Of a stretch of 64,000 nt of DNA, positions 16,801 to 63,405 are shown piece by piece. Numbering within the stretch: the first letter of the stretch is position 1; each line of letters opens with the position of its first letter. The position numbers and the translations under genes are program-made. A model generated the notes under the pieces. That model was not told where the DNA came from. It ran no database searches and saw only the letters and a list, made by a program, of their open reading frames with translations. Source of the DNA: Bactericera cockerelli (taxonomy: Eukaryota; Arthropoda; Insecta; Hemiptera; Triozidae); contig CM044965.1 in the NCBI GenBank assembly GCA_024516035.1, forward strand, positions 27,790,425-27,854,424, read 5' to 3'.

Positions 16801-19800
16801 TATGCTACTTACAAAGACAAACCAAATAACGAAACAGAGGGCGAAATTAATAGACTAAATCGACATCACAAGCTCGGACTTGAGCATTAGTTTCCCCATT
16901 TAAAACAATACCCAAAAACGAGACTAAAGTCCTCTGATTTAACAAATAAGTCTATTAACTCCTTTATCAAAGATGGTGATTGTACAAACAGCCCTTCCAA
17001 TAATTCATCTATCTCCTCCTCCCGGTGTTGGTATCTCTTCTCTTGCTGATCTATAGCTCTCTCTCTCCATCTCTCTCTCTCCTATGCAGGTCCATTCTGA
17101 GCTTCGTGCGAGGCTTAGACGCGTCCCGGCCTTACACGGCCGCCATTGCTGTCGGAGTGGATCAGGACCAGCTGGTGAGTCAGCACACATGTTAGTCAGC
17201 ACACATGTTAGTCAGCACACATGTTAGTCAGCACACATGTTAGTCAGCACACATGTTTGTTTTTTAGTTTAACGTCGCTTTCAAGTGCATGGTCATATCA
17301 CGACGGGGATGTTACTCCAAGTCCAAGACACTCCAAGTCCAAGCTTATATCACGACGGGGATGTTACCCTCCATTTAAAGGAAACTCACAATCCTGCTGC
17401 CCACATTAACCTCACCCAACCTGGTTTGGGCCGGAATGCCAGCATCACAAATGAAGCTAGACGTTGCTTAACTTCGGTGATCCTACGAGAATCGGTGCAT
17501 TCAACGCGCCATCGACGCTGGCAGATGTTTGTGTAGTTGGTGAGTTGACATATTGCCAGTAAAATTCACTTTGTAATCAAATCAATAACTTGGAAGTTGG
17601 TGGTTCAAGTCCTGGTTTCAGCGTGGATTTAGCAAAGCTAGTTTGAGTAGTTGTGATATCACGAAAGTAATTAACACAGATATGATAAATTTATTACTTT
17701 AAATTTACTTTGTCCACCAAAGGATGTAAGAAAGAATAGCAAGAATATAATTATCTATAGGTATTATCATCTATTGTGTGCTAACCCTAACCCTAATAGC
17801 TAACGTAGGTATAGTGGTTTCACGATTGTGCTGATTCTTTGTACTTTTTTTTTTGTTTTGTATTGACCATTGGAATGCTCTCGTCGTGAAAATACCAAAT
17901 AAAAGTTATTATTATTATTCTTCTCTCACCTCCCCAGGGTCAGTTCCTGGACATCATCGGGTTTAACCGGTACAACTCGTGGTACGCTAACCCGGGCCAC
18001 ACCGAAACCATCCGGCTACGAGTAGAGGAGGAGGCGGAGAAGTGGTTCAAGAAGCACAACAAGCCCGTGTATATGAGCGAGTACGGGGCGGACACCATGA
18101 CTGGACTACACATTGTAAGTATATGACTGGGCTACACATTGTAAGTATATGACTGGGCTACACATTGTAAGTATATGACTGGGCTACACATTGTAAGTAT
18201 ATGACTGGGCTACACATTGTAAGTATATGACCGGGCTACACATTGTAAGTATATGACTGGGCTACACATTGTAAGTATGTGACTGGGCTACACATTGTAA
18301 GTATATGACTGGGCTACACATTGTAAGTATGTGACTGGGCTACACATTGTAAGTATATGACTGGGCTACACATTGTAAGTATATGACTGGGCTACACATT
18401 GTAAGTATGTGACTGGGCTACACATTGTAAGTATATGACTGGGCTACACGTTGTAAGTATATGACTGGGCTACACATTGTAAGTATATGACTGTACTACA
18501 AATTGTAAGTATATGACTGGGCTACACATTGTAAGTATATGACTGGACTATCGGACTATTGGATGAAATAATCCGTCGCAGGACCGCAAAAATCAGCCGC
18601 AAGGGCCGCTTCTTTGAATTGGTTAAATATACAAAAAAAGTCAGAGAACAACATTTTCTTAGAATTAAAAAAACAATAGGGATTTACTCTGATCTTTTTT
18701 TTTTTTTTTTTTTTTTTTTGATATCTTGAACTTTTTGGAACTCGTGTGTGAATATCCTGGAGGGTAACACCCCCGTCTTGAGGTGACAATAGTAGTTGAA
18801 CGGGACGTAAAACCCAAGTTAATAATAATAATGTATTTTCTTTTGTCGACAGTATCCGTCCTACGTATGGTCGGAAGAATTTCAAATCGAAATGCTGTCG
18901 GAGCACTTCAAGGCTTTTGATAATCTGCGGAAGAAAAACTTCTTCATCGGGGAGATGATCTGGAACTTCGCGGACTTCAAAACCGCGCAAAGTGAGTATA
19001 ATCAAGTAGCACTCGCCAACAGGCCTATATTAACACGAAACAGAGTTTATATGTATTTTGTTTTATTGTTTTTGCCTACTTCCCGCTAACTTTTATCAAT
19101 AATAATAACACCCAGACAGAAACATCTGCAATCAGCCCTCTCAGGTCGAAAGTCTCATAGAGACGATTTCTGTGAGCACAGTTCACAATGTGCAAAAGTG
19201 GCCGTTTGGAACCATTCCAAAAGCCCAAAAGTGTTTTTTCTCATCAGATTAATGATGGAACCACCAAAGGGAATGTCCACGGGAGAGAGTACGGTGGACA
19301 ATCAAGTCCACCAGCTAATATTTTCCCCACATTGTGAACAGAACAACACCAGGAGACTTGATCATAGATCCGCTCCTGGTGTAACACACTCTCGGGGTGC
19401 TTGACATCCTTGAAAGGAGATACCTAAGTGCAATAATAATAATATCGCCTTATTTATACTGCCGAATTAGGACCAATGAGTCCCATTATTCCAGCAATAA
19501 GTTTGGGAGAAGACAAAGTACCAGAAAAAGAGAAAGATTATATAGGTAATCAGTATAAACAGAAAAGTGAGAAGCTGTATTAGATGTACATGAAAATAAT
19601 ATCAGAACATACCTGGCCAATAATTATTTATGTTATTACTTCCGAGAAATTTCTAATATTAGAAATCGGAAGTATTGTGTTCGTTTTTGTAAAAAAAAAT
19701 ATTTTTTTGCTCCGATTTCAACTTTTTTCATATTTCTGGACGTTTCATAACCTCCTGAGCAAATTTGGTTTTGTGTCCGTCTGTCGGTCTGTCGGTCTGT

Positions 19801-19810
19801 CGGTCTGTCG

Positions 19811-19844
<34 letters not shown>

Positions 19845-22800
19845 TAAAACGATTCCTTGTAACGCGCAAATCTCGGAAACTAATCGACCGATTTTGATGA
19901 AATTTTGTAAACATCTAGGAGACATTCTGTAGATGGTCCCATTTTAAATTCATCGAATTCGTACTAGCGGCTCTGGGTGAAAGAGACCATGCGCCTGACC
20001 ACTAACTTTTTACTTAAATGCTTATATCTCGTGAAAGGTACACCCGATTTTGATGAAATTTTGTATGTATATGCATATTAATGTTCTACACAGGCTATTT
20101 ATCTATATTTTTTAATGAATTATAATTTGACTCTGATATTTAAGAAAATCCGAAATTTTGGACAAAAAAGTCAAAAAATAAGGACCACAACTTGCCAATA
20201 CAGAATTTTTTGTAGAATCTAGAATGTAGAAAAAACGGTTTTCTACCATATAAAACAAATTTGAAGAAAATCGGTTCAGCCGTTTCGGAGATACAAGTAA
20301 TTTAGTATAAAAACTCAAAATTCGCACGTGTACACAATGTGAAACAATCACGAGGAAGTATTGTGTCCATAATTGGCAGTGTTTTTTTCTATTGTTTTCA
20401 GCGACCACCAGGGTAGGAGGAAACAGGAAAGGCATCTTCACCAGGAGTCGGCAGCCCAAATCCTCAGCTCATCATGTGAGGCGACGATACTGGTAAGCAA
20501 ACTAATTACAGTTGTTGTTGATGTTGTAGCCAGCTTGGCTACAGCTGGAGGGGTGAGTGATGGTCTCCAGCCAACTTTATTTCAAACTTGGCTCGTCCTG
20601 AACCACATATTCCTATGTGCGATCAAACATCGGGGGTTTCACGATTCGTCTTAAACTACCTGAGGTGACCTTTTTCACAACACGATTCGTCTCAAGAAAA
20701 ACAAAACACGATTCGTCTCAAATACTCGAAAATCGAAAATATATAATATCCCTTTCAAACTATCCCCATAAGAAAAAATTCCCTCTCGCACCAAAAAAAA
20801 ATCCCGCTCACATCAAGTAGTTTATCAGTAGTAGCATAACGTGTAGATTAAGAAGTGTGGAAACCACCCCCCGCCGGCCTACATCTTCGCGTCCTCAGCA
20901 CTAGACAGCGCTTGTATCGCCGGAGACGGATCCTCTCCTCGCCCCTCACAAAATTTCTTCCCGGTACAAATGTAAACATAAACATAAAAAGTTCAATTTT
21001 TTTCAAGATCGAGATAGTTTCGGCATTTTTGCTGAATTAACAATAAGTAATTGTGATTTGAGCATTTTGAGCTTGGTTTTATGATAAAAATCTTTTCTAA
21101 ATTAGTTGTCAGTACCTTTTTAACTGTTTGATATTATTATGTAACTGTTAAGCTTAATCGCAAAAAGGATACCGAGGAAGAGATTTGCAAAGTGTTACGT
21201 GTGGTGCTGTATGGAGCAGAGACGTGGACGATGAGAAAGAAGGAGGAAAAATATCTGGAGAGCTGCGAGATGTGGGTGTGGAGAAGACTAGAAGGAATCA
21301 AGTGGTCAGATAAAGCCAGAAATGAAGAAGTATTTAGAAGAGTTGGAGAGAAAAGAGAAATATTGAGAACCATGAACAGGAAAAGAAGCTGGCTGGGTCT
21401 CATACTGAGGAGAGATTTTCTGCAGAGAATCATCATGGAAGGAAATCTGGAATGAAGAAGATCAAGAGGAAGAAGAAGGTTTGGAATGCTGACAAACATG
21501 CTGAATGGAAGAACATTTGAACAAATGAAGGAGGATGCCCAATGCCCATGATCGAGTAAAGTGGAGAACGTCAAGTTGAAACGTATTGATGGCTCGTTGA
21601 ATACACCGGTTCTCTTAAGACCACCAAAGTTGGGCAACGTCCAGCGAGATTAGGACTTAGATGCTGGCTCTTCTCGGTGCAACCCAGGCTGGGTGAGGTT
21701 AATGTGGGTAACAGGTTTGTTAGTTTCCTGCGAGTGGAGGGTTGAACCTCTGTCATAACTGACCATAAAGTTGAAATATGACATTAAACTCTAATAAAAC
21801 ACACTAATAATACAAAAGGATTGGTGGGACATGAGTTTTCTTTCCTTCCAACCTGGGTGTTTTCTGTACTAGAAACCACTGGGTTGGAAGGATCTAACTC
21901 TCATCAAAGCTGGCTTTCTTTTTTCAAGTAAAGTGTCATGAAAATTAAGTCATGATTTTTGTTCTTTTTAAGTCTGTAGACTTAAGAAGCAAGGGAAAAA
22001 ATGGAAATATTTAGGGTGAAATTAATAGACATTGATGACTTCAGCATTGGTATCCTATGCTAAGTAATACGCAAATCTAGACTTAGTGTCCAAGAGGTAT
22101 TACAATTTTTTTAAATATTAACTTTGGCCTTAAGAAACAATACATTAAGGATGTTATAAACTTTTTTTCTAAAATATTTTGTTTTGCAAGTTTACATTTT
22201 TGTTTCCATAAGTTGTAATAATTTTTCCTGTATTGAGTGTAAATCCTTAATCTAATTTATTTTATACAAAACAAAAAAAATTGCGTGTGTTCCCTGAACT
22301 TTGCTAGAGAATGTATATTGGTATCTAATTTCTTATACTTTACTTATTTTATGTTGATCAACAAAATAATGAAAATATAAGTATGTTACATTTGTGTATA
22401 AACATGATAATATTAATTATATCTTTTCTATTTGATAAAGTTTGCAGGAAGGTTTAGACACATTATAGTTAGTATCATTATTAAATTTACTTTGGTTCAT
22501 ATTTGCTGTGTGGGCCCCAGAGCAATAAGAGTGCAATTACCTCCACTACAGTACATAATTATTAGTAGAATAGTAAATAAGTTTCTTTGTGTTATTATAT
22601 CACTATTTCAGTGGGTAGCATGGAACTAAAGAACTTGCACAAGTTATCTTTTAATATACAATAGCTTGATTTGACCATAATTCCACCAATTATGTCTGCT
22701 CACAGTACTCACATCAAAGCATCTATTTATTTTTATCTCACAAGGTATATGAGTGGACCCCAGGCATTCAATTATAGAGAGAAAAATTATTGTCTCACTG

Positions 22801-24659
22801 GGTATCGAATGCAGGTCACTGTGTATGCAAGCCTAGTATGCTACTCACTCAGCCACGATTACAACTAATTCTTCCCATAGAATAATAGATATCAAGAAGT
22901 GCAGTAATCTCTTTAGCAACTTCTTTATAAGTTGGATGTTGTCTCGAGACACCCTAATAAAATAATAAATTAATTACTTTAATGAGACACAAAGGAAAAC
23001 TATTACTTGGTATCGCTCGTAAATCATATTGATAGTATTTTGTAATAGGAAGTATTGGGTATATGTATGTACAACATGTTTAAATTGTGCATTTTTTATT
23101 GAGGAAAAATGTACGTGTCAATCGGGATTTGAACCCTACCGTTTGTTACCATTCAGATAAAATAATTGAGTAGGTAACAGTTACCTACTTACCTGATGCC
23201 TATTAATTAATTAGTTACCTATATGTTGTGTGGCTTATTTCTCATTGAGGAATATTACACAGAAGTTTTTGAAATTTCCTTTATAAACCATTTATACTTC
23301 AGGTTAACAGAGTTTTGAACTTTCTAATTTACCTAAATAAGGGAAACGATATTCCCATCTTAAAAAAAAAAAAAAAAAAACAGTAATACTGTCGTGATTA
23401 TAGTGCTCGATTAGGACTATCATGTCCCATTATTCAAACAATAAGTCCAATGTAATACAAAAATTCTGCACATGTCACATCTGCATCGCCCACTCTGAGA
23501 TGTGGAGAGTGTCGCCTTAACCAAAGAGCCATCGTATCATCTCATTGGCAAGAATTAATAACACGTTATGAAGCTATCGAGACAGCCCGCGAGAAATATT
23601 CCGTCTGCGGCGATGGTGTCGCGCTATGTGGCGTGTCCACGAAACTGGGGCTCGTTTCCACACTTATTAATCTACACGCTATGGTAGTAGTTTGATCATG
23701 GATAATACATATAAGGCAATGCCTCAGGTTTATAGTAGGGTTAGGTAAAATGCATAGAAGGCCATGCCTCAAGAATATAGTAGGGTTAGGTAAAATACAT
23801 AGAAGGCCATGCCTCAAGAATATAGTAGGGTTAGGGATAATACATATAACGCAATGCCTCAGGTTTATAGAAGGGTTAGGTAAAATGCATAGAAGGCCAC
23901 GCCTCAAGAATATAGTAGGGTTAGGGATAATACATAGAAGGCCATGCCTAATACATAGAAGGCTAAAGCCTGATATACATAGAAGGTAATTTCGTAATTT
24001 AATGTTTAATAATAAAAAATCCCTCAATATGTACGGTACTTGGAATGTTGCACTGAGACGAATCGTGTTGTTTACTTTTTCGCTAAGATAATAATTTGAG
24101 ACGAATCGTGTGGTCATTTTTATACCTGAAATTCCAACTTTTTTAAAAAACCCTTTTTGAGACGAATCGTGATGCGCCCCAACCATCATGAGGACTTGGA
24201 CTTTTCTTTATAAGCCATTAAACCCTTAGGAAACTGCAAACTAGCCTGGCTTGTAAGGGTCGGCTAGTCTTTTCCCTGTTTATAGTCCTCTAGCGAGACT
24301 CTGGTCTTCTCCCTGTTTAACGTCCCCCAGCCAGACTAATTACAATCCAACTAAGTGGTCAATATTTCCAAGTAAAAAAATACAGTCAATTCAGTGGATA
24401 AAAATACAGATTTACCTCTCGATAGGGCAAAAGGAGCCTCTTTTTAAAAGTAATCTGGATATAAGAAAAAAAAATCCGGTCCTTTGAGTTCTCATACATG
24501 TTCGACTGTATTTTGCAGCGAAATGAATCACAAAAGGTATCATAATGAAAATAATCACGTGTTCCTCATTCCAGGCTACTCAGTGGATACTTAGACAGAA
24601 CTCCAGTGCCCAATGACACGATACCGTACGCTGCAAATGTGGCGCACAACGAACTTTGA
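4721..24659 (+). CDS. GUSB: beta-glucuronidase, 3' seven exons
   Basis: Lysosomal exo-hydrolase that removes terminal glucuronic acid from glycosaminoglycans and conjugates (GH2 family). Exons: 4721-4893, 14510-14653, 17090-17174, 17938-18114, 18853-18991, 20402-20492 and 24575-24659. All introns are GT-AG, phases agree at every junction, and the join gives 297 codons plus TGA. Seen in order: [20 protein letters not shown] and [15 protein letters not shown] (start of the TIM barrel), MWSVANEP with the acid/base Glu, and YMSEYGAD with the nucleophile Glu, then WNFADF and the [17 protein letters not shown] end. Both catalytic glutamates are present and no internal stop occurs, so the gene looks functional. 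The N-terminal half (signal peptide, sugar-binding and Ig-like domains) lies upstream of the window. Introns are swollen by transposons, the first visible one to 9.6 kb. Assignment to a plain beta-glucuronidase rather than another GH2 enzyme is strong. Confidence 0.93.
4903..5016 (-). repeat. tRNA-type SINE, 3' part (family V)
   Basis: Contains AGGCGAGGTTAATGCTCAAA and ATGTGGTCACAAACTCAAAT, the body of the SINE that is fuller at 5153-5365, 32606-32820 and 33533-33765. The tRNA head is missing here. The copy abuts a short AAT run. Confidence 0.65.
5153..5365 (-). repeat. tRNA-derived SINE (family V)
   Basis: Minus-strand SINE with a box B read in reverse as GGGATTCGAACCAACGG near 5288 and a reversed box A region near 5335-5360. 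The body is the AAGGTAACCACCAGGC module. The tail is an AATAATAA run, meeting the rest of the window's TAA-tailed SINEs. Confidence 0.75.
5366..5505 (+). repeat. LINE 3' end fragment
   Basis: The phrase AGAGAATGCCGTTGGCATTA, then CACCGCCCTTGATCAAG and a terminal AATAAAACTTGATCC, recurs at 47985-48112 where it ends in poly-A. The two copies look like the 3' ends of one LINE family, not otherwise represented here. Confidence 0.55.
5512..5615 (+). repeat. three about 35-bp repeats before LINE ORF1
   Basis: Three near-identical units starting TACCAGTGCACATGT, the third reading TACCAGTGCTCAAGG, each ending in a TGCGTC-like string. Repeated 5' UTR units are common in LINEs and may hold an internal promoter; that role is inference. 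Confidence 0.6.
5749..6546 (+). CDS. LINE ORF1 protein (coiled coil, FP-like)
   Basis: Begins [14 protein letters not shown] chose this first ATG over upstream in-frame codons because the preceding frame has no other ATG. The product is 265 residues. Residues about 35-115 are Glu/Lys-rich heptads consistent with a coiled coil. The next part, [18 protein letters not shown] and [13 protein letters not shown], is the RNA-binding domain typical of insect LINE ORF1 proteins and similar to the baculovirus FP protein family. The C-terminus [19 protein letters not shown] is characteristic of the same group. No CCHC zinc knuckle is present. Its role is to bind and package the LINE RNA. It stops 24 bp before ORF2. 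Confidence 0.82.
   Translation: MAPKKKTNPTVDDKKVSRKTTVVESSDSEDSEVDIMEEKIEKVMKKVMKEFQKEIKIQLQEFEKSLNFTSGKMEEMLEEMKELKKRQVSLENENEILKEKVRKMETSVEDLEQYSRNRNIEINGIPFTKDENLENIGKNIGNEINMEIKDGEIDGVHRIPTRNNKNPEPVVVQFLSRKKRDEIIQKAKDKEITTTTLNMSGPQRTIYINEHLTKQRKRLLYETKQKKKELAYKFVWTKGGKVFLRKNENSNVIQIRTFEELDYIK
6571..9522 (+). CDS. LINE ORF2: endonuclease and reverse transcriptase
   Basis: 983 residues, uninterrupted. The N-terminal part is an APE-type endonuclease: [45 protein letters not shown] and the IADHYFVF motif. The reverse transcriptase spans about residues 470-760: [71 protein letters not shown] and the catalytic YADDT at about 699-703. A C-terminal tail follows without a clear zinc finger. It nicks target DNA and primes cDNA synthesis there. 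The layout fits the jockey/CR1 supergroup; I cannot assign the clade. Base composition is far more A-rich than the host exons. Confidence 0.88.
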   Translation: MNFEFDNLNLNFETKKYNTIHDWKTMEMKDNKNNINIIHINIRTINATKFEILKAYINDVVKKLDLIIITEFLSNNEQVDIYNIPNFNLYTFCRENRKGGGIGVYAKENLKISEINTMKFNHAEKIELEIQNKNLIINTIYRPPKQSASLFIDELNKWLKNKNIITKDVIIIGDLNINILEDTQIKQKYIETLYNHKIINTIKLPTREEIVNNKLVSTCLDHINIRSKNKFEAAVINEKIADHYFVFTKIINAKIEDGNEKIKIKTIDEEKLNDLIAEYEWIKLIEQNEHAENLYNEFIKVFHNFYETCSKEIVIKKKYEGNCWITNEIRDQIKIKNNLWKILRKNPHDEHLRKEFKNMRNKLNNIITQEKKKYNSNIFKKCHGDMRKTWKNIDIIINKKRKNNETILKNNFKNINLNTIDIANNFNKAFKEDIIKIKEEKEIMTSNIEIVYNNHSERELFHIEPINSTNLRNIIKNMKPNKGPGHDKIRPKDIKNNIIWIEQIVITIINRIINEKRIPIELKKANVIPVYKKGKKDIYSNYRPITELSIIIKILEKHIQNQLSKFIEDNNILNNNQHGFRKNKSTKTLLNNYTEDLNNALNNKQCCLTLSLDLKKAYDTINHEKIIDVLMKMGMTSDTTSFFENYFTDRRQYVKIGKTLSNEILINCGLIQGSGLSPTLFNLYVNDINLIGLKSKILQYADDTLIYVVHENKNELYKTFQQDTNKILKWLHKKDIFINKEKTVAILFESPIAERFRDNIERKIQLHENKCLDENVNGNCNCKTVENENNMKYLGIQFNKSLKWNNHTNCLKNKLNSILHKTQFIKKVIPVNIKVMIYKTLCESVIRYGIETYGYTAEVNLKPIKSVQKKIIKATLYPKTSKKERKKLMNEYKILNFNNLFKYIMTTNHYYNEDYRQIHESTYNTRNINFIIPTISNKYGETTLKYQIPKMLNELPIKLRNIFSRTKMKKEIQKHYLSSNNDI
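9636..9671 (+). other. 3' UTR stem-loop of the LINE
   Basis: CCCCTAAAAGTACAA pairs with TTGTACTTCAAGGGG around the loop CAGGTA, with 12 of 15 pairs matched. It lies about 40 bases before the element's end. LINE 3' hairpins often serve as reverse-transcriptase recognition sites; that role here is inferred. Confidence 0.6.
9711..9737. repeat. (TTA)n microsatellite between two LINEs
   Basis: About nine TTA units. It ends the AT-rich LINE and touches the 3' end of the minus-strand R4-like LINE, consistent with insertion of the latter into a TAA repeat. Confidence 0.85.
9825..13955 (-). CDS. R4-like LINE ORF: RT and REL endonuclease
   Basis: 1376 residues without a stop. The N-terminal 350 residues consist of two near-identical 156-residue blocks, each with [20 protein letters not shown] and WRSRNP motifs that look like Myb/Trp-type DNA-binding helices. 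The reverse transcriptase (about 600-900) shows [67 protein letters not shown] and the catalytic [11 protein letters not shown] near 857. The C-terminal part has a zinc knuckle [18 protein letters not shown] (about 1183-1200) and a restriction-like endonuclease signature KPDIVIKD followed by IIDVAVP. This order (DNA-binding, RT, CCHC, REL) defines the R2/R4 supergroup. The YVDD and the TAA target point to R4/Dong/Rex6. It cuts target DNA and reverse transcribes its RNA there. The open ORF suggests recent activity. Confidence 0.87.
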   Translation of the reverse strand: MDALEPHNDDATRTENTQGILNEQPNISTLPAPEQNISVNQSDYRQNGPEMNVEIVEESNRNRNPTRQKWSIEEYKEIMWCYYYGLETTGSSNLNDTYDIWRSRNPNRRPTINANTLGTQRRYILNNKKIPQTQLDKILEEVKKTARRNRPREEEEQQNLDDRQTIETENEPEERSYTEVIHSIQQNLGDSNISMNQTDHRQNDPVMNVEITEESNQNQNPTRQKWSIEEYKEIMWCYYYGLETTGTSNLKATYDIWRSRNPKRRPTIKANTLGTQRRYILKNKKIPQTQLDRILEEVKKTARRNRLREEEEQQNLDERQTNETENEPEERSYAEIIGSIPHNLEDSNVSISNQGDIHTTENEEVDEIVRDIKEKVNNTSSIYNEKLGKVPYNQKTKLTVKKIDKALHKIFEEKKLNHNNISITEIAILAYAGAEVVLSKLGIRIQEKNRNTTKPKWKMRIEEKIKKLRKDLSQITEISQGNESTRMQTIKKRLYSKYNIKNKADEEKTIETLKQNVQAKAQRIRRFEERHQFYKQNQQFKDNPKQFYKTLNGKNIKVEIPPETTEVKKLWQDIWETPEEHNQSAEWIQRHETRNEEIEEMIWQNITAAEVKSILLKSSNWKAPGIDGIQNYWLKNFSSIHEPLAKAYNRILQNPTQMPDWLTEGITHLIPKNERTNEAKNYRPITCLPTLYKNITSIISERLYKHLENNELYPNEQKGCAKNTYGCKDHLLVNNMITRDAKTKRKSLSMGWIDYQKAFDSVPHTWLVKTLKINKVNKTIVQFLETTMKKWKTNLRLSTEQEAIDIGIIHIKRGIFQGDALSPLLFCMALFPLSRELNTEGKGYRVEKNQNLINHLFYVDDLKLFARNDEDLEHLLKTVKIFSDDIKMKFGLEKCAKITIEKGKVKQKQDITVLDDTIRELEGTELYKYLGIEEHDGLEHKKVKEKLTHTYYNRVRKILKSHLTGKNKITAITTLAVPVLAYSFGIINWTITEIQSIDRKTRKILTMNNCHNPNADVDRLYTPRNRGGRGMTNIEQTYKLSIIGLMEYIKKKEDSLIRSIKEYETKRPSERTLMKTGEKYKIKQLGETYQDTRERELLEEIRNIKTKCKEMMINKREERWIQKIMHGQFGRYMKDENINRKTTFNWLERGDIKGETESLIVAAQDQAITTNYIKRKIYKEQTDGKCRLCKQFEETIWHIMSGCPILAKKEYLDRHNKVAQNLHYNICKHYEIQVQEAWYKHEPNAVERSPDGNVIVMWDQQIRTDRTIMANKPDIVIKDLKNKQCYIIDVAVPNDNNIREKEAEKKLKYKDLQIEIQKMWNVKAQIIPVIIGATGTVGKNLAENLRNIPGNSNQMITNTLQKSVILATAHIIRRTT
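14366..14478 (-). repeat. 54-bp tandem duplication in the LINE 5' UTR
   Basis: TTGCAGATGTTTCCATCTGG plus the following GCGATGGGATCGCC occurs twice, 54 bases apart, at the extreme 5' end of the R4-like element. A GCGATGGGATCGC near-palindrome is included. Confidence 0.75.
14479..14504. repeat. (ATT)n microsatellite at an exon acceptor
   Basis: About eight ATT units. They flank the 5' end of the R4-like LINE and stand directly before the CACAG acceptor of the next glucuronidase exon, where they serve as its pyrimidine-poor tract. Confidence 0.8.
14510..14653 (+). CDS. GUSB: beta-glucuronidase exon B (acid/base Glu)
   Basis: Acceptor TATTCACAG, donor GTGAGTG. It completes the Glu codon begun in exon A, then reads [18 protein letters not shown] and [18 protein letters not shown]. 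The Glu of NEP is the catalytic proton donor. It ends two bases into a Lys codon. Confidence 0.94.
14698..14895 (+). repeat. tRNA-derived SINE (family P)
   Basis: tRNA-like head with box A GTGGCTCAGTTGTTAAGAG and box B GCGGTTCGAATTCCC, a body with TTTTTCCGTTTCCGGAATGA, and the tail CGAAAACGGTTCCGGGGC before a T-rich end. A reversed relative is at 33125-33298. Confidence 0.8.
14927..15171. mobile_element. MITE with long imperfect terminal inversions
   Basis: The left end AAGTAATGGAGAACTCGTAA mirrors the right end TTATGAGTTTTCCATTACTT. Further in, CTAACCTGTCACGTAAA mirrors TTTTATGTGACAGGTTAC. It is about 245 bp and non-coding; the superfamily is not determined. Confidence 0.65.
15172..16440. 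other. intron, little recognisable
   Basis: AT-rich intron. Near 15590-15625 a reversed box B-like CTGGACTCGACCCGACCC hints at a degraded tRNA-type SINE. Nothing else was recognised. Confidence 0.4.
16447..16725. mobile_element. MITE, about 280 bp
   Basis: Terminal inverted repeats of about 50 bp: CACTCTCACTTTCATAATCC and CCCCAAATCT on the left, mirrored by AGATTTGGGGATTATGAGAG on the right. The middle holds AACATGTCTGTTTTGTTTCC, which recurs inverted at 63815-63885. Confidence 0.7.
16838..16975. mobile_element. small MITE, GAGGGCGAAATTAATAGAC type
   Basis: The left end GAGGGCGAAATTAATAGACT and the right end AAGTCTATTAACTCC are imperfect inversions. Related ends are at 22015-22115 and 53765-53884. 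Confidence 0.5.
17090..17174 (+). CDS. GUSB: beta-glucuronidase exon C
   Basis: Acceptor TCCTATGCAG, donor GTGAGTC. It encodes [20 protein letters not shown] and AVGVDQDQL. The donor is the first unit of a 16-bp tandem array. Confidence 0.92.
17175..17254 (+). repeat. 16-bp array starting at a splice donor
   Basis: Five units of G-T-(G/T)-AGTCAGCACACAT begin exactly at the donor GT. The first unit has the functional GTGAGT; the other four read GTTAGT. Confidence 0.85.
17262..17523 (-). repeat. 5S-headed SINE, minus strand
   Basis: The reversed 5S head at 17440-17523 (ACGTTGCTTAACTTCGGTGA, then CCTACGAGAATCGGTGCATT) is preceded by the reversed shared core (CCCACATTAACCTCACCCAA) and tail. The tail piece ATATCACGACGGGGATGTTA is duplicated. 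Confidence 0.75.
17528..17695 (+). repeat. tRNA-derived SINE (family Q)
   Basis: Box A-like TAGTTGGTGAGTTG region, box B GGTGGTTCAAGTCCTGG near 17597, and a body with AGTTGTGATATCACGAAAG. The reverse of this body is seen at 55262-55402. Confidence 0.65.
17938..18114 (+). CDS. GUSB: beta-glucuronidase exon D (nucleophile Glu)
   Basis: Acceptor CACCTCCCCAG, donor GTAAGTA; exactly 59 codons in phase 0. It reads [20 protein letters not shown], then [20 protein letters not shown]. The Glu of SEYGAD is the catalytic nucleophile. The last 18 exonic bases begin a 26-bp array. Confidence 0.95.
18097..18545 (+). repeat. 26-bp array of an exon end plus donor site
   Basis: The unit is GTAAGTATATGACTGGGCTA plus CACATT. 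GTAAGT occurs 17 times at 26-bp steps from 18115 to 18531, each preceded by the exon-derived CTACACATT. The authentic exon end differs only slightly (CTGGACTACACATT). 26 is not a multiple of three, and TGA occurs in the unit. Confidence 0.93.
18556..18741 (+). repeat. fragment of the element at 54000
   Basis: GCCGCTTCTTTGAATTGGTT, then AGAGAACAACATTTTCT and GATATCTTGAACTTTTTGG, match 54300-54425 almost word for word, interrupted by a longer T-run. Confidence 0.7.
18742..18835 (+). repeat. shared-core SINE tail
   Basis: CTGGAGGGTAACACCCCCGT and TAGTTGAACGGGACGTAAAA, followed by AATAATAATAAT, are the 3' end of the core-SINE family. Confidence 0.65.
18853..18991 (+). CDS. GUSB: beta-glucuronidase exon E
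   Basis: Acceptor TTGTCGACAG, donor GTGAGTA. It encodes [20 protein letters not shown] through [16 protein letters not shown], the conserved end of the GH2 barrel, and leaves one base of a Thr codon. Confidence 0.94.
19100..19445 (+). mobile_element. short R4-like LINE derivative
   Basis: It starts after AATAATAATAA with GAAACATCTGCAATCAGCCC and AAGTCTCATAGAGACGA, which match the 5' end of the R4-like LINE (reverse of 14340-14440). It then diverges and ends at another AATAATAATAAT run. At about 330 bp it is either a deletion derivative or a SINE that borrowed the LINE 5' end. Confidence 0.6.
19446..19625 (-). repeat. SINE tail (family T) and adjoining repeat
   Basis: ATCGCCTTATTTATACTGCC then TGAGTCCCATTATTCCAG are the reversed 3' end of the SINE seen complete at 53588-53764. 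19548-19620 (ATCAGTATAAACAGAAAAGT) recurs at 53430-53500. Confidence 0.6.
19636..20385 (+). repeat. dispersed element with (CTGT)n
   Basis: Opens with the palindrome TTTCTAATATTAGAAATCGG and GAAGTATTGTGTTCG. It contains a CTGT microsatellite (19783-19845) and ends GGAAGTATTGTGTCCATAAT plus TGGCAGTG. The inverse copy is at 4150-4715, and the end recurs at 59462-59543. It stops 16 bp before the acceptor of the next exon. No ORF. Confidence 0.65.
20402..20492 (+). CDS. GUSB: beta-glucuronidase exon F
   Basis: Acceptor CTATTGTTTTCAG, donor GTAAGCA. Reads [20 protein letters not shown] and AHHVRRRYW with the Trp codon split. Without splicing the next codon is TAA, so the donor is required for the last exon. 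Confidence 0.9.
21186..21550 (+). pseudogene. RTE-type LINE ORF2 C-terminal piece
   Basis: Reads [58 protein letters not shown] and [11 protein letters not shown], stops after MEGNLE, and resumes as [20 protein letters not shown]. This is the standard C-terminal region of RTE/BovB-group reverse transcriptase proteins. The 5' part is absent. Confidence 0.75.
21580..21800 (+). repeat. 5S-headed SINE
   Basis: Head GATGGCTCGTTGAATACACC, GGTTCTCTTAAGACCACC and GGGCAACGTCCAGCGAG; core CAACCCAGGCTGGGTGAGGT; tail with AAAGTTGAAATATGACATTA. Complete but diverged. Confidence 0.75.
22015..22115. repeat. MITE-related fragment
   Basis: Begins AGGGTGAAATTAATAGACAT and ends AGAGGTATTACAATTTTT, like the element at 53765-53884, without a clear inverted right end. 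Confidence 0.4.
22120..22730. other. no recognisable feature
   Basis: AT-rich interior of the 3.5-kb element. No ORF, repeat or RNA structure was recognised. Confidence 0.45.
22733..22862 (-). repeat. tRNA-derived SINE (family C)
   Basis: Reversed head: GGGTATCGAATGCAGGTCAC (box B side), then GCCTAGTATGCTACTCACTC. The body has CTCACAAGGTATATGAGTGG. A better copy is at 56466-56765. Confidence 0.65.
23090..23200 (-). repeat. possible degraded tRNA-type SINE
   Basis: A reversed box B-like CGGGATTTGAACCCTACCG near 23120 is the only support. Confidence 0.3.
23395..23545 (-). repeat. SINE (family T), degraded
   Basis: TTAGGACTATCATGTCCCAT and CAAACAATAAGTCCAAT follow the reversed body of the SINE at 53588. 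The head near 23490-23540 is diverged. Confidence 0.5.
23698..23995. repeat. about 45-bp tandem array
   Basis: Six to seven units built on ACATAGAAGGCCATGCCTCA, AGAATATAGTAGGGTTAGG and TAAAAT. Units alternate between AAGAATATAG and GGTTTATAG forms. Open frames on both strands here are products of the repeat. The GGTTAGG strings are internal and not telomeric. Confidence 0.85.
24213..24345 (+). repeat. dispersed repeat, copy of 3385-3525
   Basis: Shares CTGCAAACTAGCCTGGC, TCCTCTAGCGAGACTCTGG and TCTTCTCCCTGTTTAACGTC with 3385-3525. It directly follows the 3.5-kb element. Confidence 0.6.
24575..24659 (+). CDS. GUSB: beta-glucuronidase last coding exon
   Basis: Acceptor TCATTCCAG. Its first base completes the Trp codon of exon F, then reads [20 protein letters not shown] and NVAHNEL, stop TGA at 24657-24659. 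A short hydrophilic tail at this point is normal for the family. Confidence 0.85.
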
Positions 24660-25150
24660 TCTCACCACAAGACTGTTGATGAACTGAGAGTCTCACTAGA
24701 AAACCATGACACTGTTGCTGTTCTGGAAGAACTAGTCTCACTAGAAATCCATGACACTGTTGATGTTCTGAAAGAACTAGTCTCACTAGAAAACCTTGAC
24801 ACTGTTGATGTTCTGGAAGAACTAGTCTCACTAGAAAACCATGACACTGTTGATGTTCTGGAAGAACTAGTCTTACTAGAAAACCATGACACTGTTGATG
24901 TTCTGAAAGAACTAGTCTCACTAGAAAACCATGACACTGTTGATGTTCTGGAAGAACTAGTCTCACTAGAAAACCATGACACTGTTGATGTTCTGGAAGA
25001 ACTAGTCTCACTAGAAAACCATGACACTGTTGATGTTCTGAAAGAACTAGTCTCACTAGAAAACCATGACACTGTTGATGTTCTGGAAGAACTAGTTCTC
25101 ACTAGAAAACCATGACACTGTTGATGTTTTAGAAGAACTAAAACTAGAGC
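24660..25150 (+). repeat. 45-bp array in the glucuronidase 3' UTR
   Basis: About ten units of CTAGTCTCACTAGAAAACCA, TGACACTGTTGATGTTCTGG and AAGAA begin within 20 bases of the stop codon. The first units are the most diverged. Frames stay open on the minus strand because 45 is a multiple of three; no gene is implied. Confidence 0.9.
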
Positions 25151-25331
25151 CATGGGCAATATTTAAGTTCAGTAAATATCTGTTATGTAAATCTCAAAAA
25201 AAAAAGCTAAATAGTTACTAATTCTTGTAAAACTTATTTATCAAAAATGTACTTCTCTCAATTTAACAAGGTATTTATTTACCTTCCTATGTAATATTAA
25301 ACTATTGTCATTACACGAAAGTATTGGTCAA

Positions 25332-25337
25332 AATAAA
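25332..25337 (+). promoter_or_regulatory. candidate polyadenylation signal
   Basis: AATAAA about 670 bases after the glucuronidase stop, followed by T-rich sequence. It is the first clear signal after the array, and the use is inferred. Confidence 0.4.
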
Positions 25338-25446
25338 TTTAAATTGTGTTTCGTCAATTTTTTTCTTTATTTTTCATTAATAGATTCTTGTATAAAATAG
25401 ATATTATGAACTTATTATAGAACATATTTTAAAAAATATATCTATA

Positions 25447-26789
25447 CAGTATGTTTCAGAAAAGGTGGCCACCCCCTCGTAACTTTTGAACGCGACGGAA
25501 TTTTTCAATTCTGTAAAGTCCTAGGTATAGGAAGTGCCCTATGGCCCATCCTATGGTCATATTTATTTTTGGCCCCGGTCGACCCTTCCGGCTTTTAGGC
25601 CATATTTTTTCATTTTTCTCGCGAATTTTAAATGGAATGCTATATTTTTTATTCTTGTTAATTAAAGTCTAATTTAAGCTGAGTATAATGAGCTTTTAAA
25701 ATTTTCAAAAACCTTATCAGGGGCGGAGCTAGTAGGGTGCAAGTTTCAAAATTGTTACACCCTGTATTTCAGTGTTAATTAGATTTTTTAGTACTTTTTT
25801 TATGTTCATAGGTTCAAAATATTGTTTTACACCATATGAAATCAAAAAATTATTCTTGTTTACTTCTAATCAGGGTCATAGTAAGGTTTTTGTAAAAGTA
25901 CTTTTTTTCTCACGTCAATTTTTCCGTAAATTAATGGTGTTCTCGAAATTGGCATTTTTAGAGGTGAAAGTCTGCAGTGACATATGTTTTTTATGCTTGA
26001 AATCGAAAGAAAACTTAACGGAGAAGCGATTAAGATCATAAAAAAAGCCATTTAACCTGCTAGTTTTTTCACGACAGTGTCCGGTAAAGTGGGTGAATTT
26101 CGTATTGGATTTTTTGTTGTTGTTGAGGAAACACAATTGGCATAGAAAATAAATAATATCTAATAAGGGAATAATACTTCAATAAACATAACTAAATGCG
26201 AAATTAAATGAAAATTATTTCTTCTAAATCAGTGCCGGATATTTTTTTTTTATCTCTCTCTCTCTTTTTTTACTTTTCAAAGTTCAAGTTGTATCAAAAA
26301 TAATTATCGGATAATGCTGCTTCTAAAGTCGGCCTAGGGGTCCCCTCTTGAGACAATTTTAGTTGGTAAGTTGGTAAAATCTGTAGAAAACACATTGTCA
26401 ATAATTCTGGAGTCAGTCCGATGGCGCTTTGAATGCAACGATTCTTGTAGGATCACCGAAGTTAAGCAACGACCAGCGAGGAGAAGACTTCGTGATGCTG
26501 GCATACTGGCATTCCGGCCTAGCCCAGGCTGGGTGAGATAAATGTGTTTAGGAGGTTGGTGAGTTTCTTGCGAATGGAATGTAACACCCCCGTTATGATA
26601 TGACCATGCAGTTGAAACGCGATATTAAACCCAAATTTAAAAAAAATCATACTGGTGTTGCTAGTAATGAATACCAGGTCTCTAAATAAAAATCTAATTA
26701 TCTCGAAATTTAAGAGAAAAAAATACCAGGTCAAGTACCAAACTCTTGAGGGTGAAAATGAAACCAATTCAATTATTTTAAAGAGGAGA

Positions 26790-26822
<33 letters not shown>

Positions 26823-27622
26823 AAAAAAATTATCCGGCACTGATTTAGAAGAAATAATCTTCCTTTAATTTCGCATTTAGTTATGTTAATTAAAGTATTA
26901 TTCCCTTATTAGGTATTATTTATTTTCTATGCCAATTGTTTTTCCTCAACAAAAAAAAATTCAATACGAAATTCACCCACTTTACCGGACACTGTCGTGA
27001 AAAAACTAGCAGGTTAAATGGCTTTTTTTATGATCTTAATGGCTTCTCCGTTAAGTTTTCTTTCGATTTCAAGCATAAAAAACATATGTCATTGCAGACT
27101 TTCACCTCTAAAAATGCCAATTTCGAGAACACCATTAATTTACGGAAAAATTGACGTGAGAAAAAAAGTACTTTTACAAAAACCTTACTATGACCCTGAT
27201 TAGAGGTAAACAAGAATATTTTTTTGATTTCATATGGTGTAAAACAATATTTTGAACCTATGAACGTAAAAAAAGTACTAAAAAATCTAACTAACGCTGA
27301 AATACAGGGTGTAACAATTTTGAAACTTGCACCCTACTAGCTCCGCCCCTGATAAGGTTTTTGAAAAATTTAAAAGCTTATTATACTCAGCCTAACTTGG
27401 ACTTTAATTAACAGGAATAAAAAATATAGCATTCCATTTAAAATTCGCGAGAAAAATGAAAAAATATGGCTTAAAAGCCGGAAGGGCCGACCGGGGCCAA
27501 AAATAAATATGACCACAGGATGGGCCATAGGGCACTTTCTATACCTAGGACTTTACAGAATTGAAAAATTTCGTCGCGTTCAAAAGTTACGAGGGGGTGG
27601 CCACCTTTTCTGAAACATACTG
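25447..27622. mobile_element. foldback element 1, about 800-bp inverted arms
   Basis: Arms 25447-26243 and 26827-27622 are near-perfect inversions, tipped by CAGTATGTTTCAGAAAAGG. TA on each side fits a TA target. The 580-bp centre contains a 5S SINE (26411-26645) and a GA-rich tract. No transposase. Arm landmarks: GGAAGTGCCCTATGGCC, GGGGCGGAGCTAGTAGGG, TACACCCTGTA and, at the inner end, CAGTGCCGGAT. Confidence 0.88.
26411..26645 (+). repeat. 5S-headed SINE inside foldback 1
   Basis: Head TTCTTGTAGGATCACCGAAG, TTAAGCAACGACCAGCGAG; core CTAGCCCAGGCTGGGTGAG; tail AACACCCCCGTTATGATATG and ACCATGCAGTTGAAACGCGA. The best preserved tail in the window. Confidence 0.8.
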
Positions 27623-27626
27623 TATA

Positions 27627-29334: not shown

Positions 29335-29360
29335 TATATAAAATCCATTTACATTCATTC

Positions 29361-30075
29361 ATAATCAACGCAGAGCCTAAACGGCTGGGCCGATTGACTT
29401 CAAATTTTGCAGGAAGCTTCCCCTTATGATGTAGGGGCGTACTAAGAACGGATTTTTTGAAGGAAACAGGGGTTCTCAACTTATGGCCAAAAATTAACAG
29501 TTATTGATAATCAATGCAGAGCCTAAACGGCTGGACCGATTGACTTGAAATTTTGCAGGAAGCTTTCCCTTATGATGTAGGGGCGTACTAAGAACGGATT
29601 TTTTGAAGGAAACAGGGGTTCTCAACTTATGGCCAAAAATTAACATTTATTGATAATCAATGCAGAGCCTAAACGGCTGGGCCGATTGACTTGAAATTTT
29701 GCAGGAAGCTTCCCCTTATGATGTAAGGGCGTACTAAGAACGGATTTTTTTTTTAAGGAAACAGGGGTTCTCAACTTACGGTCAAAATTAGTCATTTTTA
29801 GAGTGTTGTCAGATTCTCAAAAGGGTTGAGCTGAATGACTTGAAATTAGGCAGAAAACTTCTCTCAGTGATGAAGAAGCTTACTATGAAAGGATTTTTCA
29901 AAGATAACAGGGGTCCTCAACTTATGGACAAAAGTAGACATTTTAGCGTCTTGCAAGATTATCAAAACGGTTGAGCCGAATGACTTGAAATTTGGCAGAC
30001 AGCTTTTTTTGTGATGTAGGGGAATAATAAGAAACAAATTTTAAAAGAAAATAGGGGTTCTCAACTTATGGTCAA
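29361..30075 (+). repeat. 146-bp tandem repeats near the Helitron 5' end
   Basis: Three close units start with ATAATCAA at 29361, 29507 and 29653 and contain CTAAACGGCTGGGCCGATTG and GATGTAGGGGCGTACTAAG. Two older units (AGGGTTGAGCTGAATGACTT, ACGGTTGAGCCGAATGACTT) follow to about 30075. The ACGGCTG-CCGATT phrase is common in insect Helitrons. Confidence 0.85.
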
Positions 30076-30114
30076 GCTGGATGGCGAATACTATGTTTTT
30101 CGACTCATGAGAGA

Positions 30115-32340
30115 TACTCTCCTGTCATACATTTGGCCGTCCACTTTGAAAATGGACAAAGGGTAGTTTTTACAACCGAAAATGTCCAACAGAGAATTGA
30201 CAACCCCCCAAAACAACATTAATGGCGTTTTTCTAACTATGCAACCAGGATGAATTTGCAAAGACTCTTTTTTATAATGAAATACCAGCATTTTATGTGT
30301 GGAAAAACAACATGTTCCAAAGAAGGAAAAAAAGATCAATTGTTCCAGGACATCCGGGTGTAAAAAAAGACCAGGTTCTTTGTAAAATTTATACCGTACA
30401 TCCGAATGACTCAGAATGTTTCTACCTACGATTACTTCTACATAAAGTGCGAGGACCTACTTCATTCAGAAGCCTCAAAATGGTAGGCGGCATTGAATAC
30501 CCTACGTTCGATGCTGCATGCCTAGCCATGGGTTTGTTACTTGATGATGCGCAAGCAATGTGAACAGTATTACCAACAGAACTTATTTGGCAGAAATTTC
30601 ATACAACACGTTTCAAATGAGGTCTTTCGTCTCTGAAAAATGCCATTACTCAATAGTGAACAGAGATACGTGTATGAAACTGAATTTCACACCGTCACTT
30701 CATCTCTTGATTCTGTAGGTAATAATTTGTTCTTCCTAGATGCTCCAGGTGGAACTGGAAAAACATTCTTAATAAACCTTTTGTTAGCTACAATACGCAA
30801 AGATGGAAATATTGCCGTTGCTGTTGCATCGTCCGGTATTGCCGCTACACTGATAGAAGGAGGCCGCACTATTCATTCTGCTTTGAAATTGCCGCTCAAT
30901 TTAAATTCAGTAGATACACCAAGCTGTATTATTGGAAAGCAAAGTGATATGGCCAAAGTCCTCAGGGATTTCAAGTTGATCGTATATGATGAATTTACAA
31001 TGACTCATAAAACTGGCTTAGAGACACTGGACCGTACTCTACAAGACATTCATGGTGTTAAAAATCTTATGGGTGGTAAAACTGTGCTACTTTCTGGAGA
31101 TTTTAGACAAACTTTACCCGTTGTTCCACGTGGAACAAGAGCTGGCGAAGTGAAGGCATGTTTAAAATCATCCATTTTGTGGCCACAGATAACTGTTATT
31201 TCTTTAAAGTTGAATATGCGTGTACACCTTCAAGCTGATCAAAATGCAGAAGTTTTTTCGAAGCTTTTGCTTCGGATAGGTGATGGACAGTTACCTGAAC
31301 AAAATGAAAAAATTGTATTTCCTACCGAACACTGTCAGTTATTAGTCGATTAGAACACCTTCCTAGACACTATCTACCCCAATCTAGATGACCCAAGTGT
31401 TGTTGTCCCTGTTTGGCTAAAGATAAGGGCCATACTAACACCAAAGAATGATAATGCTCTGGAAATTAATAATGACTTATTAAAAAGAATACCTTCTGAA
31501 CTATCAACTTACGAAACCGCAGACACTTTTGTGGAAGAGGAAGAAGCCATCCATTACCCAACCGAATTTCTTAATACACTAAATCCTCCTGGCTTGCCAC
31601 CCCATCGGCTATGCCTTAAGGTTGGAGCACCAATAATATTACTAAAAAATCTGAGACCCCCGAAATTGTGTAACGGCACGCGGCTTCAAATTACATCCTT
31701 AAAAAAAAACATTATCGAGGCAGTTATATTCACAGGGGCTGGTGCAGGTGAAACGGTATATGTACACAGGATTATTTTTGTCGGACCGGGGGTTCGAACC
31801 CGGGACTTTCCGCATCGTAAGCGAGTGCTTAACCACTGAGCTATTTGTGTGCTCATTTAATCTGTTCATTAGCAACTATGCACTTGGGTTCTTTTTTTTA
31901 ATGGAAGGCAGGAAAAAATCTTTCAAAGACACCCAGATCCTGCCTGGGTGTGGGATTTCCACCCACTAAAAACCCACCTTCTCTAAAAGCTAACCGCACT
32001 TGGAACCGAAAAATATCATTACTTCAAGTGCGGCGCTGTAGGGCACCTACTGATTTCGTTGTAGTGCCCTCCCATCTCTCTCTTGGGTTCTAATGTGATT
32101 TCCGACTACCACTTTAATTTAAAAAGAGTTCAATTCCCCAGAAAACTATGTTTTGACATGACGATAAATAAGGCACAGGGCCAGACTTTTGAGCTAGCTG
32201 GAATTGACCTTAGAACGATTGCTTCTCCCACGGTCAGCTCTATGTTGCTTTTTCAAGAGTAAGGTCTGCCAAGTCCCTCATTGTGTTACAGCCAGATGGT
32301 ATAACAAAGAACCTGGTGTATAAAGAAGTGCTTCAATAAC
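30115..32340 (+). pseudogene. Helitron Rep-linker and PIF1-like helicase, decayed
   Basis: Helitron helicase of the PIF1/RecD2 type, which unwinds DNA during rolling-circle transposition. Pieces in order: VIHLAVHFENGQRVVFTTEN (30135 on), then after a frameshift LFYNEIPAFYVWKNN and LCKIYTVHPNDSECFYLRLL, a deletion, then the helicase from 30640 with Walker A DAPGGTGKTFLINLL, VYDEFTM and SGDFRQTLPVV. A stop lies after CQLLVD, and the frame continues to VHRIIF near 31770. A minus-strand SINE then interrupts it. Coding resumes near 32106 with SDYHFNLKRVQFP, motif VI MTINKAQGQTF, a frameshift and GQLYVAFSRVRS. The Rep HUH nuclease is missing. With several frameshifts, stops and an insertion, it cannot be functional. 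Confidence 0.85.
31770..32095 (-). repeat. tRNA-derived SINE inserted in the helicase
   Basis: Reversed tRNA-like head GGGGGTTCGAACCCGGGACT then AGCGAGTGCTTAACCACTGA near 31789-31845. The body continues to about 32095, where helicase coding returns. The insertion splits the motif between VHRIIF and SDYHFN. Confidence 0.75.
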
Positions 32341-32408
32341 CATAAAACTTATGCAGCGGCGGTGGCCATGCCTTAAGTAAAATGTGGCCATGCCTTGGCC
32401 ACGCGAAG

Positions 32409-32425
32409 CGGGCGTAGCCCACTAG
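32409..32425 (+). other. Helitron 3' terminus
   Basis: An 11-bp hairpin GGGCGTAGCCC followed by A and the terminal CTAG, with T next. This is the canonical CTRR end with its upstream stem-loop. Confidence 0.85.
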
Positions 32426-32605
32426 TAGAAGATAAAATTTCACCTTTTCCCCTACATTTTTTCTCTCGTTAGACTCAACGGACAATGCAGTAGAATGAAT
32501 CGCAGCTTGTCCAAATCTGATTTTTGCTTAGAGAGAAATTAAAATAAATTAAATCAACTAACTGCTCTATAACGAGTTCCAATATCTGACACAGCATATT
32601 TAATA

Positions 32606-32820
32606 ATAAGACAGTAACACTCTCTAGTAAAAGGTAACCACCAGGCGAGGTTAATGCCAAAAGCACTTTTTTCCACCTAAACCTCAGAGTGTTATTATTA
32701 TGTGGTCACAAACTCAAATTAATGAGGAAAAATTCATGCACTGTGTGGGATTCGAACCAACGGATCGATACGCTACCTGGATTACCAGACTAGCGCGTTA
32801 GGCACTTGACTACCAGTGCT
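32606..32820 (-). repeat. tRNA-derived SINE (family V)
   Basis: Full copy: AAGGTAACCACCAGGCGAGG, ATGTGGTCACAAACTCAAAT and reversed box B TGGGATTCGAACCAACGG. AATAATAA tail. Confidence 0.78.
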
Positions 32821-33124
32821 GATAAGAGGAAATTCAATGACAAAGTCATTGAATGTAGAAACGGCAGTAGTAGTATTTCGACCAACAAGGTGATTCTGTC
32901 CAAGCGGAAAGACACATAATTATGTTTTTTTTGTTAAAGTTTTGTTAAAGACAAAAAAATAAATAAATAAAATTTATTTATTAGTTAAAGACAAAGAACT
33001 GGGTCTACTTCGATAGTTGAAAATTTTAGGGGTCCCGCTAGGTCTATCTTTTATCTTCTTCTTCCGCGAGCAGAATGGTTAGATTTTCAAGAATTTTTTA
33101 GTACCTTGAGGCTTAAAAAAAGGT

Positions 33125-33298
33125 AATTGTACCCTGGAACCGCTTTCGCATTACTTCAGGGCACTTTACCTCTTTACATCCATGCTATTCCGGAAACGGA
33201 AAACCTTTCAGAATAATCTGCTCCGGCCAAGATTCGAACCCGCAACCTCCGGGTCAGTATCCAATGCTTTAAATCACTGAGCTACGGAGGTCGGCCAC
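33125..33298 (-). repeat. tRNA-derived SINE (family P)
   Basis: Reverse of the 14698 family: TACCCTGGAACCGCTTTCGC, CTATTCCGGAAACGGAAAAC, GATTCGAACCCGCAACCTCC and CACTGAGCTACGGAGGTCGG. Confidence 0.78.
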
Positions 33299-34709: not shown

Positions 34710-34710
34710 T

Positions 34711-36841: not shown

Positions 36842-63405
<26,564 letters not shown>

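Follow-up and report, generated by a model that had tools for sequence, protein, structure and literature searches.

Tandem expansions at splice junctions of a psyllid AP-1 gamma gene resemble avian exon stuttering

We analysed a 64,000-nucleotide window of the genome of the psyllid Bactericera cockerelli (GCA_024516035.1, contig CM044965.1, forward-strand positions 27,790,425–27,854,424; GC content 37%) that carries parts of two plus-strand genes: the 3′ part of a beta-glucuronidase gene (its last six exons, 14510–24659) and, after it, most of the gene for AP-1 complex subunit gamma (15 modelled exons, E1–E15, 36842–63405), which continues past the window end. At 13 of the 41 modelled splice junctions, adjacent DNA was duplicated or multiplied in tandem, 11 of them among the 30 junctions of AP-1 gamma and 2 among the 11 of glucuronidase. 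Each site has a unit of its own, 16–190 bp long and present in up to 26 copies. Repeats were located by Tandem Repeats Finder (TRF), self-BLAST and splitting of arrays into units. An initial annotation, made from the letters of the sequence, had reported arrays at 13 of about 40 boundaries, and all 13 sites were found again. It had also held that the units differ from site to site and do not represent one mobile repeat; unit splitting bore this out, as the 13 units are unrelated and each comes from its own junction, ruling out a single mobile repeat as the source.

The gene models were built by homology alone. The spliced AP-1 gamma protein matched AP1G1 structures at 3.6e-262, and the glucuronidase part matched the beta-glucuronidase structure 1bhg at 3.2e-63. 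Among the best 120 of 7,477 matches, the closest AP-1 gamma proteins were those of two psyllids, at 82% in Cacopsylla melanoneura and 79% in Diaphorina citri, and the best of the remaining listed matches spanning the full query was at 72%. All modelled introns are GT–AG and the AP-1 gamma reading frame is intact. The left edge of E1 was set at the ATG, 7 nt inside a likely acceptor, and a possible upstream exon of the untranslated region (UTR) was not counted. The Cacopsylla alignment is gapless at the array-bearing AP-1 gamma junctions, apart from those near the variable hinge/linker (the exon 12 donor/exon 13 acceptor and the exon 14 donor); most of exon 5 is absent from both Diaphorina models. 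Gene model and protein alignment together indicate that the AP-1 gamma exons themselves are unaltered despite the arrays.

In AP-1 gamma, six donors (exons 6, 7, 8, 11, 12 and 14) and five acceptors (exons 6, 8, 10, 12 and 13) bear duplications, all on the plus strand. Unit splitting was applied at every site; it was combined with TRF at the exon 6 acceptor and the exon 8 and 11 donors, with self-BLAST at the exon 7 donor and exon 13 acceptor, and with both at the remaining six. The donor-side units typically contain the end of the exon together with the start of the intron. At exon 6 (47499–47671), a 94-bp unit is repeated 2.6 times across the donor junction (47630–47878), the third copy having lost its GT. 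Exon 8 (49094–49324) carries a 42-bp donor unit in 13 copies (49289–49833), each made of 36 nt of exon end plus GTAAGC, and exon 11 (54663–54775) a 44-bp unit in 4.9 copies (54750–54964). At the exon 12 (56793–56962) donor, a unit of about 96 bp, comprising roughly 80 nt of exon end and the intron start, is repeated 8.2 times (56882–57696), and the differences between copies are mostly synonymous. The largest array follows exon 14 (59811–59969), where units of 105, 109 and 111 bp extend over 2.9 kb (59905–62813), include 26 donors counting the real one and show a higher-order period of 214 bp. A microhomology of about 6 nt (AGCAGT) lies at the exon 14 unit boundary, with breakpoints judged by eye only.

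The acceptor-side arrays mirror this anatomy. Upstream of exon 6, a 24-bp unit is repeated 20 times (47014–47494) within the intron, stopping 4 nt short of the exon. The 67-bp exon 8 acceptor unit (4.6 copies, 48788–49111) contains TACTAA, which resembles a branch point, the AG and the first 18 nt of the exon. At exon 10 (52791–53006), a unit of about 92 bp (52517–52805) gives three copies of AG plus exon start, including the real exon, which have been spaced apart by growth of a TTCTA microsatellite. The exon 12 acceptor unit consists of the polypyrimidine tract, the AG and the first 11 nt of the exon in 39 bp, with 26 upstream copies (55421–56461). Two sites hold spaced two-copy duplications rather than arrays: a 111-bp duplicate at the exon 7 (48176–48355) donor (48308–48473), comprising 48 nt of exon end and the donor and differing by three counted substitutions, all synonymous, and by a 9-nt insertion; and a 190-bp duplicate at the exon 13 (58958–59194) acceptor (58449–58975), which contains the AG and the exon start at about 79% identity. 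Insertions stand between source copy and array at two junctions. At the exon 12 acceptor, a dispersed element (56462–56767), SINE-like by our inference (SINE, short interspersed nuclear element), with four diverged relatives (73–74%) elsewhere in the window, parts the array from its source copy at 56768–56803; at the exon 14 donor, an insertion ending in AAT repeats (60016–60167) lies between copies 1 and 2, and nothing but its T-run matched the rest of the window. Within exon 13 itself (59049–59066), we also observed an in-frame B-box-like sequence, GGGTTCGATTCCCGGCGG, in a stretch unmatched in the Cacopsylla and Diaphorina proteins. We take its tRNA/SINE resemblance to mean that it is perhaps an exonised SINE fragment in a conserved gene.

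Both glucuronidase arrays, located by TRF and unit splitting on the plus strand, are at donors. That of exon 2 (17090–17174) is a 16-bp unit in five copies (17178–17257), beginning at intron position +4; with the AP-1 gamma exon 6 acceptor array it is one of two that are purely intronic and whose edges lie 3–4 nt off the junction. That of exon 3 (17938–18114) is a 26-bp unit in 17.5 copies (18097–18550), composed of 18 nt of exon end plus GTAAGTAT, with donors intact in 17 of 17 cases. The initial annotation had placed the arrays at junctions, and all 13 are there; glucuronidase, however, also holds arrays elsewhere. Intron 5 contains a 45-bp array (23700–23986) with GGGTTAGG motifs, which counts against junction exclusivity, and a weak second array with a 37-bp unit (24267–24337). 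We assume the GGGTTAGG motifs to be telomere-like. The 3′ UTR contains a 45-bp unit in 10 copies (24689–25140), starting about 30 nt past the stop codon; both of its strands contain open reading frames. A two-copy, 54-bp duplication (14371–14477) precedes the first glucuronidase acceptor of the model by 32 nt, and an ATT microsatellite runs from it into that acceptor.

The junction excess was assessed against a null model in which each array counted as a single unit and segments of unit length could fall anywhere except wholly inside exons. The AP-1 gamma test set comprised all 12 self-BLAST clusters of direct duplications with offsets of at most 800 bp within 36842–63405, some with hand-trimmed edges. 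Eleven of the 12 lie within 5 nt of a junction (expected 2.0, P = 5.5e-9) and 10 touch one (0 nt, P = 6.1e-8); the twelfth, off-junction, is a pair of dispersed-element copies. Under the strictest adjacency, using TRF only (12 rows after merging, with periods under 10 omitted), the count was 6 of 12 (expected 1.23, P = 4.7e-4), three arrays failing because insertions or microsatellite growth part them from their source. Of 5 glucuronidase duplications, 2 lie within 5 nt of a junction, where 0.25 would be expected (P = 0.02), and 1 directly touches a junction (0 nt, P = 0.18). This test omits the 54-bp pair at 14371–14477, whose intron has no identified 5′ exon, and the 3′ UTR array; with both added as off-junction cases, the ratio becomes 2 of 7. 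The expectation that junctions would exceed intron interiors thus held clearly in AP-1 gamma, and the extension to two unrelated genes is strong for AP-1 gamma and only suggestive for glucuronidase.

One explanation for this excess is that junctions are true mutational hotspots, at which a co-transcriptional structure (an R-loop, a stalled polymerase or an edge-preferring nuclease or recombination initiation) breaks DNA. Consistent with this idea, the intron interiors of AP-1 gamma, despite accounting for most of the gene, contained no array comparable to the junction ones, donors and acceptors are both affected, and the two intron-only arrays each have an edge no more than 4 nt from a junction. 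The AP-1 gamma units not exceeding 50 bp (24, 39, 42 and 44 bp) are on junctions in 4 of 4 cases (P = 4e-5, or 4e-3 with intron space reduced to 5 kb; the subset was chosen afterwards). The arrays are unevenly distributed along the gene, however, occurring at 11 of 18 junctions in exons 6–14 and at 0 of 12 elsewhere (P = 6e-4, with the boundary drawn post hoc). Because exons 1–5 and 15 of the same transcript are array-free, transcription or splicing alone is insufficient, and the interior intron arrays and 3′ UTR array of glucuronidase also speak against junction targeting, which we consider somewhat unlikely. Alternatively, duplications could arise everywhere, with exonic ones purged, deep-intron ones overwritten by transposons and decayed, and junction-proximal ones surviving in the most durable part of the intron. 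Introns here do hold transposon sequence, such as a mariner-like transposase in AP-1 gamma intron 9, and shrinking the intron space for transposon insertions lowered the excess to P = 0.03 at 3 kb; at 5 kb it remained at P = 9e-4. Moreover, several arrays look young (the exon 8 donor array has 99% self-identity), leaving little time for the loss of interior counterparts and making such survivorship improbable. In AP-1 gamma, array growth was on the intron side, and no duplication lay wholly within any exon among the self-BLAST clusters in 36842–63405.

Tandem arrays are hard to assemble, and an assembly or polishing artefact would be a further explanation. By self-BLAST, self-identity is lowest at exon 13 (about 79%), is 83% at the exon 6 donor and reaches 99% at the exon 8 donor, array copies share point variants and show higher-order structure, and two arrays are split by insertions. 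The arrays are likely to be real DNA because of this spread of identities and these insertions. A genomic-read assembler cannot recognise splice sites, which again argues against an artefact, as do the two diverged duplications at 79% and 83%, and we consider this explanation extremely unlikely. The range of self-identities, the several exon 14 unit types and the 214-bp period point to array turnover that is ongoing.

Splice sites are well preserved in the copies: GT is kept in 74 of 75 donor copies and AG in 37 of 37 acceptor copies. Some arrays are also open. All donors of the exon 8 array are in frame and the exon 8 frame is open across 49289–49885, so that, judging from the sequence, splicing from a later donor would lengthen the protein by multiples of 14 residues with no frameshift; upstream of exon 12, the acceptor array keeps the exon frame open as far as the insertion. 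These features could suggest a selected function, in which extra donors or acceptors improve splicing efficiency or yield regulated isoforms. However, retention of splice sites is weakly informative, as the copies are nearly identical anyway; the exon 12 donor units have an in-frame TAA directly after the GT, 19 of 25 exon 14 copies are shifted by 1 nt from the frame of the real exon, and the third exon 6 copy lacks its GT.

Substitutions in the copies bear on the same question. Pooled over arrays, copies differ from the real exons by 27 synonymous and 24 nonsynonymous changes, a silent count above that expected if all sequences were neutral (14.0, P = 1e-4) and compatible with drifting copies of a source exon that changed only silently (22.0, P = 0.10), so that the source exon alone can account for the pooled silent excess. 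Taken as a pool, the copies therefore look like past states of a changing exon and not like coding sequence. The opposite tendency is seen in two arrays. At the exon 12 donor there are 9 silent to 2 replacement changes (P = 4e-4 against all-neutral, P = 0.015 against neutral copies of an evolving exon), and in the exon 14 array, 0 of 37 exon columns (25 copies) versus 7 of 46 intron columns (24 copies) are variable (P = 0.015). Truncated or gapped copies were dropped (3 of 4 copies were used at exon 11 and 7 of 8 at the exon 12 donor), the count took only the last 37 nt of exon 14 and the 16 full copies of glucuronidase exon 3, skipped the 9-nt insertion at exon 7 and assumed a 3:1 weighting of transitions; because variants within an array are non-independent and not every copy was used, these P values can serve only as a guide. 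The case for coding selection is thus at best weak, with the pooled data fitting neutral copies of an evolving exon and only the exon 12 donor silent-biased, and we regard a selected function as very improbable. The suggestion that splicing masks the cost of the copies fared better: the splice site at the exon body would yield the conserved protein, and splicing can in this way mask the copies.

Several other features of the window lie outside the junctions. The mariner/Mos1-type transposase of AP-1 gamma intron 9 occupies 50608–51479 in two frames (Pfam HTH_48 and Transposase_1). Two long reverse transcriptase open reading frames face each other head-on (6547–9519, plus strand; 9828–14027, minus strand), the second containing a 468-bp tandem duplication (12904–13847, 90%) within its open frame. 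Between the two genes, in a region spanning 29347–31353, a 146-bp tandem array of about five copies lies near a helicase-like reading frame (30637–31353) with a GGTGKT motif. This combination resembles what we take to be a Helitron-type element with its satellite.

The initial annotation had considered amplification of existing junctions to be an undescribed trait, and this does not stand. Under the name sequence stuttering, Hron et al. (February 2026; PMC12954441) describe local intron expansions on chicken dot chromosomes, including a subset termed exon stuttering, in which copies of a lateral exon part and its donor or acceptor run through the neighbouring intron; this is the same anatomy. 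The authors count 236 exon-stuttering introns in 115 genes, with 190 of 5,572 dot-chromosome introns passing the exon screen; exon parts measure 20–187 nt (median 36) in 1–44 copies, and more than 90% of sources lie at most 1 base from the exon border. We reapplied the published screen (20 nt, 42.1 bits). All 48 matches in AP-1 gamma fell in adjacent introns, with none in distant introns or in 20 shuffles; 6 of the gene's 14 introns were positive, each with at least one source match ending exactly at the exon border. All positive introns were donor-side, as the exon portion in the acceptor copies is too short to pass. None of the 5 glucuronidase introns was positive, because the 18-nt exon part falls below the 20-nt cut-off.

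We therefore favour, with a probability of roughly 60%, the reading that the arrays are local tandem expansions of the exon-stuttering kind. The units are local in origin, the reading frame is intact, and the arrays span a range of ages and include higher-order structure. A short segment spanning or touching the exon–intron border would have been duplicated in place through an error of repair or replication, and within the intron, unequal exchange, gene conversion or slippage would then expand, contract and partly homogenise its copies. The exon and the splice site belonging to it would stay intact, with the exon-attached copy (the first donor or the last acceptor) giving the normal mRNA and other splice products either not made or not fatal. 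The location of the arrays may reflect a gene segment that is recombination- or repair-active, as suggested by elevated third-codon-position GC (GC3). Median GC3 was 0.81 in array-bearing exons (n = 10) versus 0.57 in array-free exons (n = 11; P = 0.02), and in AP-1 gamma, third-position GC was 106 of 204 in exons 1–5 versus 393 of 485 in exons 6–13 (P = 5e-14, for a split chosen afterwards).

Several observations weigh against the exon-stuttering reading, particularly where GC content or G-quadruplexes are invoked. The array units are AT-rich (median GC 0.41, with 8 of 13 below 0.45), and the one G-quadruplex motif in the window is in exon 13, so that GC-rich or quadruplex explanations fit poorly. 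GC3 has exceptions in both directions, with arrays at exons 11 (0.59) and 14 (0.43) and none at exon 9 (0.78) or glucuronidase exon 1 (0.83). Within array exons, GC3 is lower in the duplicated parts than in the remainder (0.68 versus 0.80, P = 0.006, a result on which exon 14 weighs). The silent excess at the exon 12 donor appears to exceed the neutral-copy model (9 of 11, P = 0.015), and the evidence comes essentially from one gene and from DNA sequence. In chicken, moreover, arrays confined to the intron are common and only a minority involve exons, whereas the AP-1 gamma arrays sit on junctions; something favours junctions more strongly here, because no comparable interior array was found. 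Intron length in chicken varies extensively among individuals, whereas the psyllid case is known from one assembly. In view of unit GC and the lone quadruplex motif, GC-rich or quadruplex-forming units were rejected as the driver, and the lower GC3 of duplicated parts contradicts the possibility that arrays raised exon GC through conversion. Any link to GC is more likely to be a shared regional recombination or repair activity than unit GC or G-quadruplexes.

A broader possibility, which we entertain tentatively, is that a junction-specific mutational process operates genome-wide in this psyllid, perhaps in psyllids generally, and in an AT-rich genome, with junctions rather than introns at large as the hotspots. 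Exon stuttering would then be uncoupled from high GC and G-quadruplexes, and the exon edge itself would be implicated, through co-transcriptional breaks or recombination initiation at exon edges. Long-read assemblies of about 0.6 Gb for other psyllids, three of them in PMC12203342, would make junction specificity and age directly measurable; a term search of that paper returned no occurrence of ‘tandem repeat’ or ‘satellite’. Among the matches listed from the open-access literature, with subscription papers mostly outside, there was no insect or other invertebrate case of junction multiplication. For annotators, these arrays carry a warning, as some are in frame and could be called repeat-rich coding sequence.

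Two other known systems are partly similar. In the human gene IFI6 (6-16), a minisatellite with multiple splice donors has been described (Turri et al. 1995, as cited in PMC4526556). There, as here, a tandem unit bears an exon-end splice donor, and the psyllid units also have a functional-looking donor (GT in 74 of 75); IFI6 is one locus with several usable donors, whereas the psyllid case, known from DNA alone, involves 13 junctions with unrelated units and includes acceptors. Intron gain by tandem genomic duplication of AGGT-containing segments, as reviewed in PMC3443670, shares with the psyllid arrays a tandem duplication carrying splice-like sequence that splicing allows to be tolerated. 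That process makes a new intron within an exon, whereas the psyllid arrays multiply existing junctions and leave the protein as in its relatives. Creation of new introns by AGGT duplication can be set aside here, since the units hold an existing junction with intron sequence; at array sites outside the variable hinge, the protein has no added or lost stretch.

The closest counterpart remains chicken stuttering. Both systems show imperfect, local tandem expansions of introns in blocks of tens to hundreds of base pairs; in both, the exon edge and its splice site are copied from a source at the border and the exons remain intact. Exon stuttering in birds was proposed to follow from GC-rich, highly recombining dot chromosomes, and GC-rich genes of gerbils gave the sole other hint. 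The psyllid array exons parallel this association in their GC3, whereas their units are AT-rich; the host is an insect rather than a vertebrate, and its AT-rich introns bear transposons. We regard the psyllid arrays as exon stuttering in an insect variant, the most surprising feature of which is its junction placement in an AT-rich, transposon-bearing gene, without the GC-rich setting blamed in birds. The occurrence of this anatomy in an AT-rich gene of an insect, with a denser and stricter tie to junctions than in chicken, implies either an independent origin or a widespread, overlooked instability.

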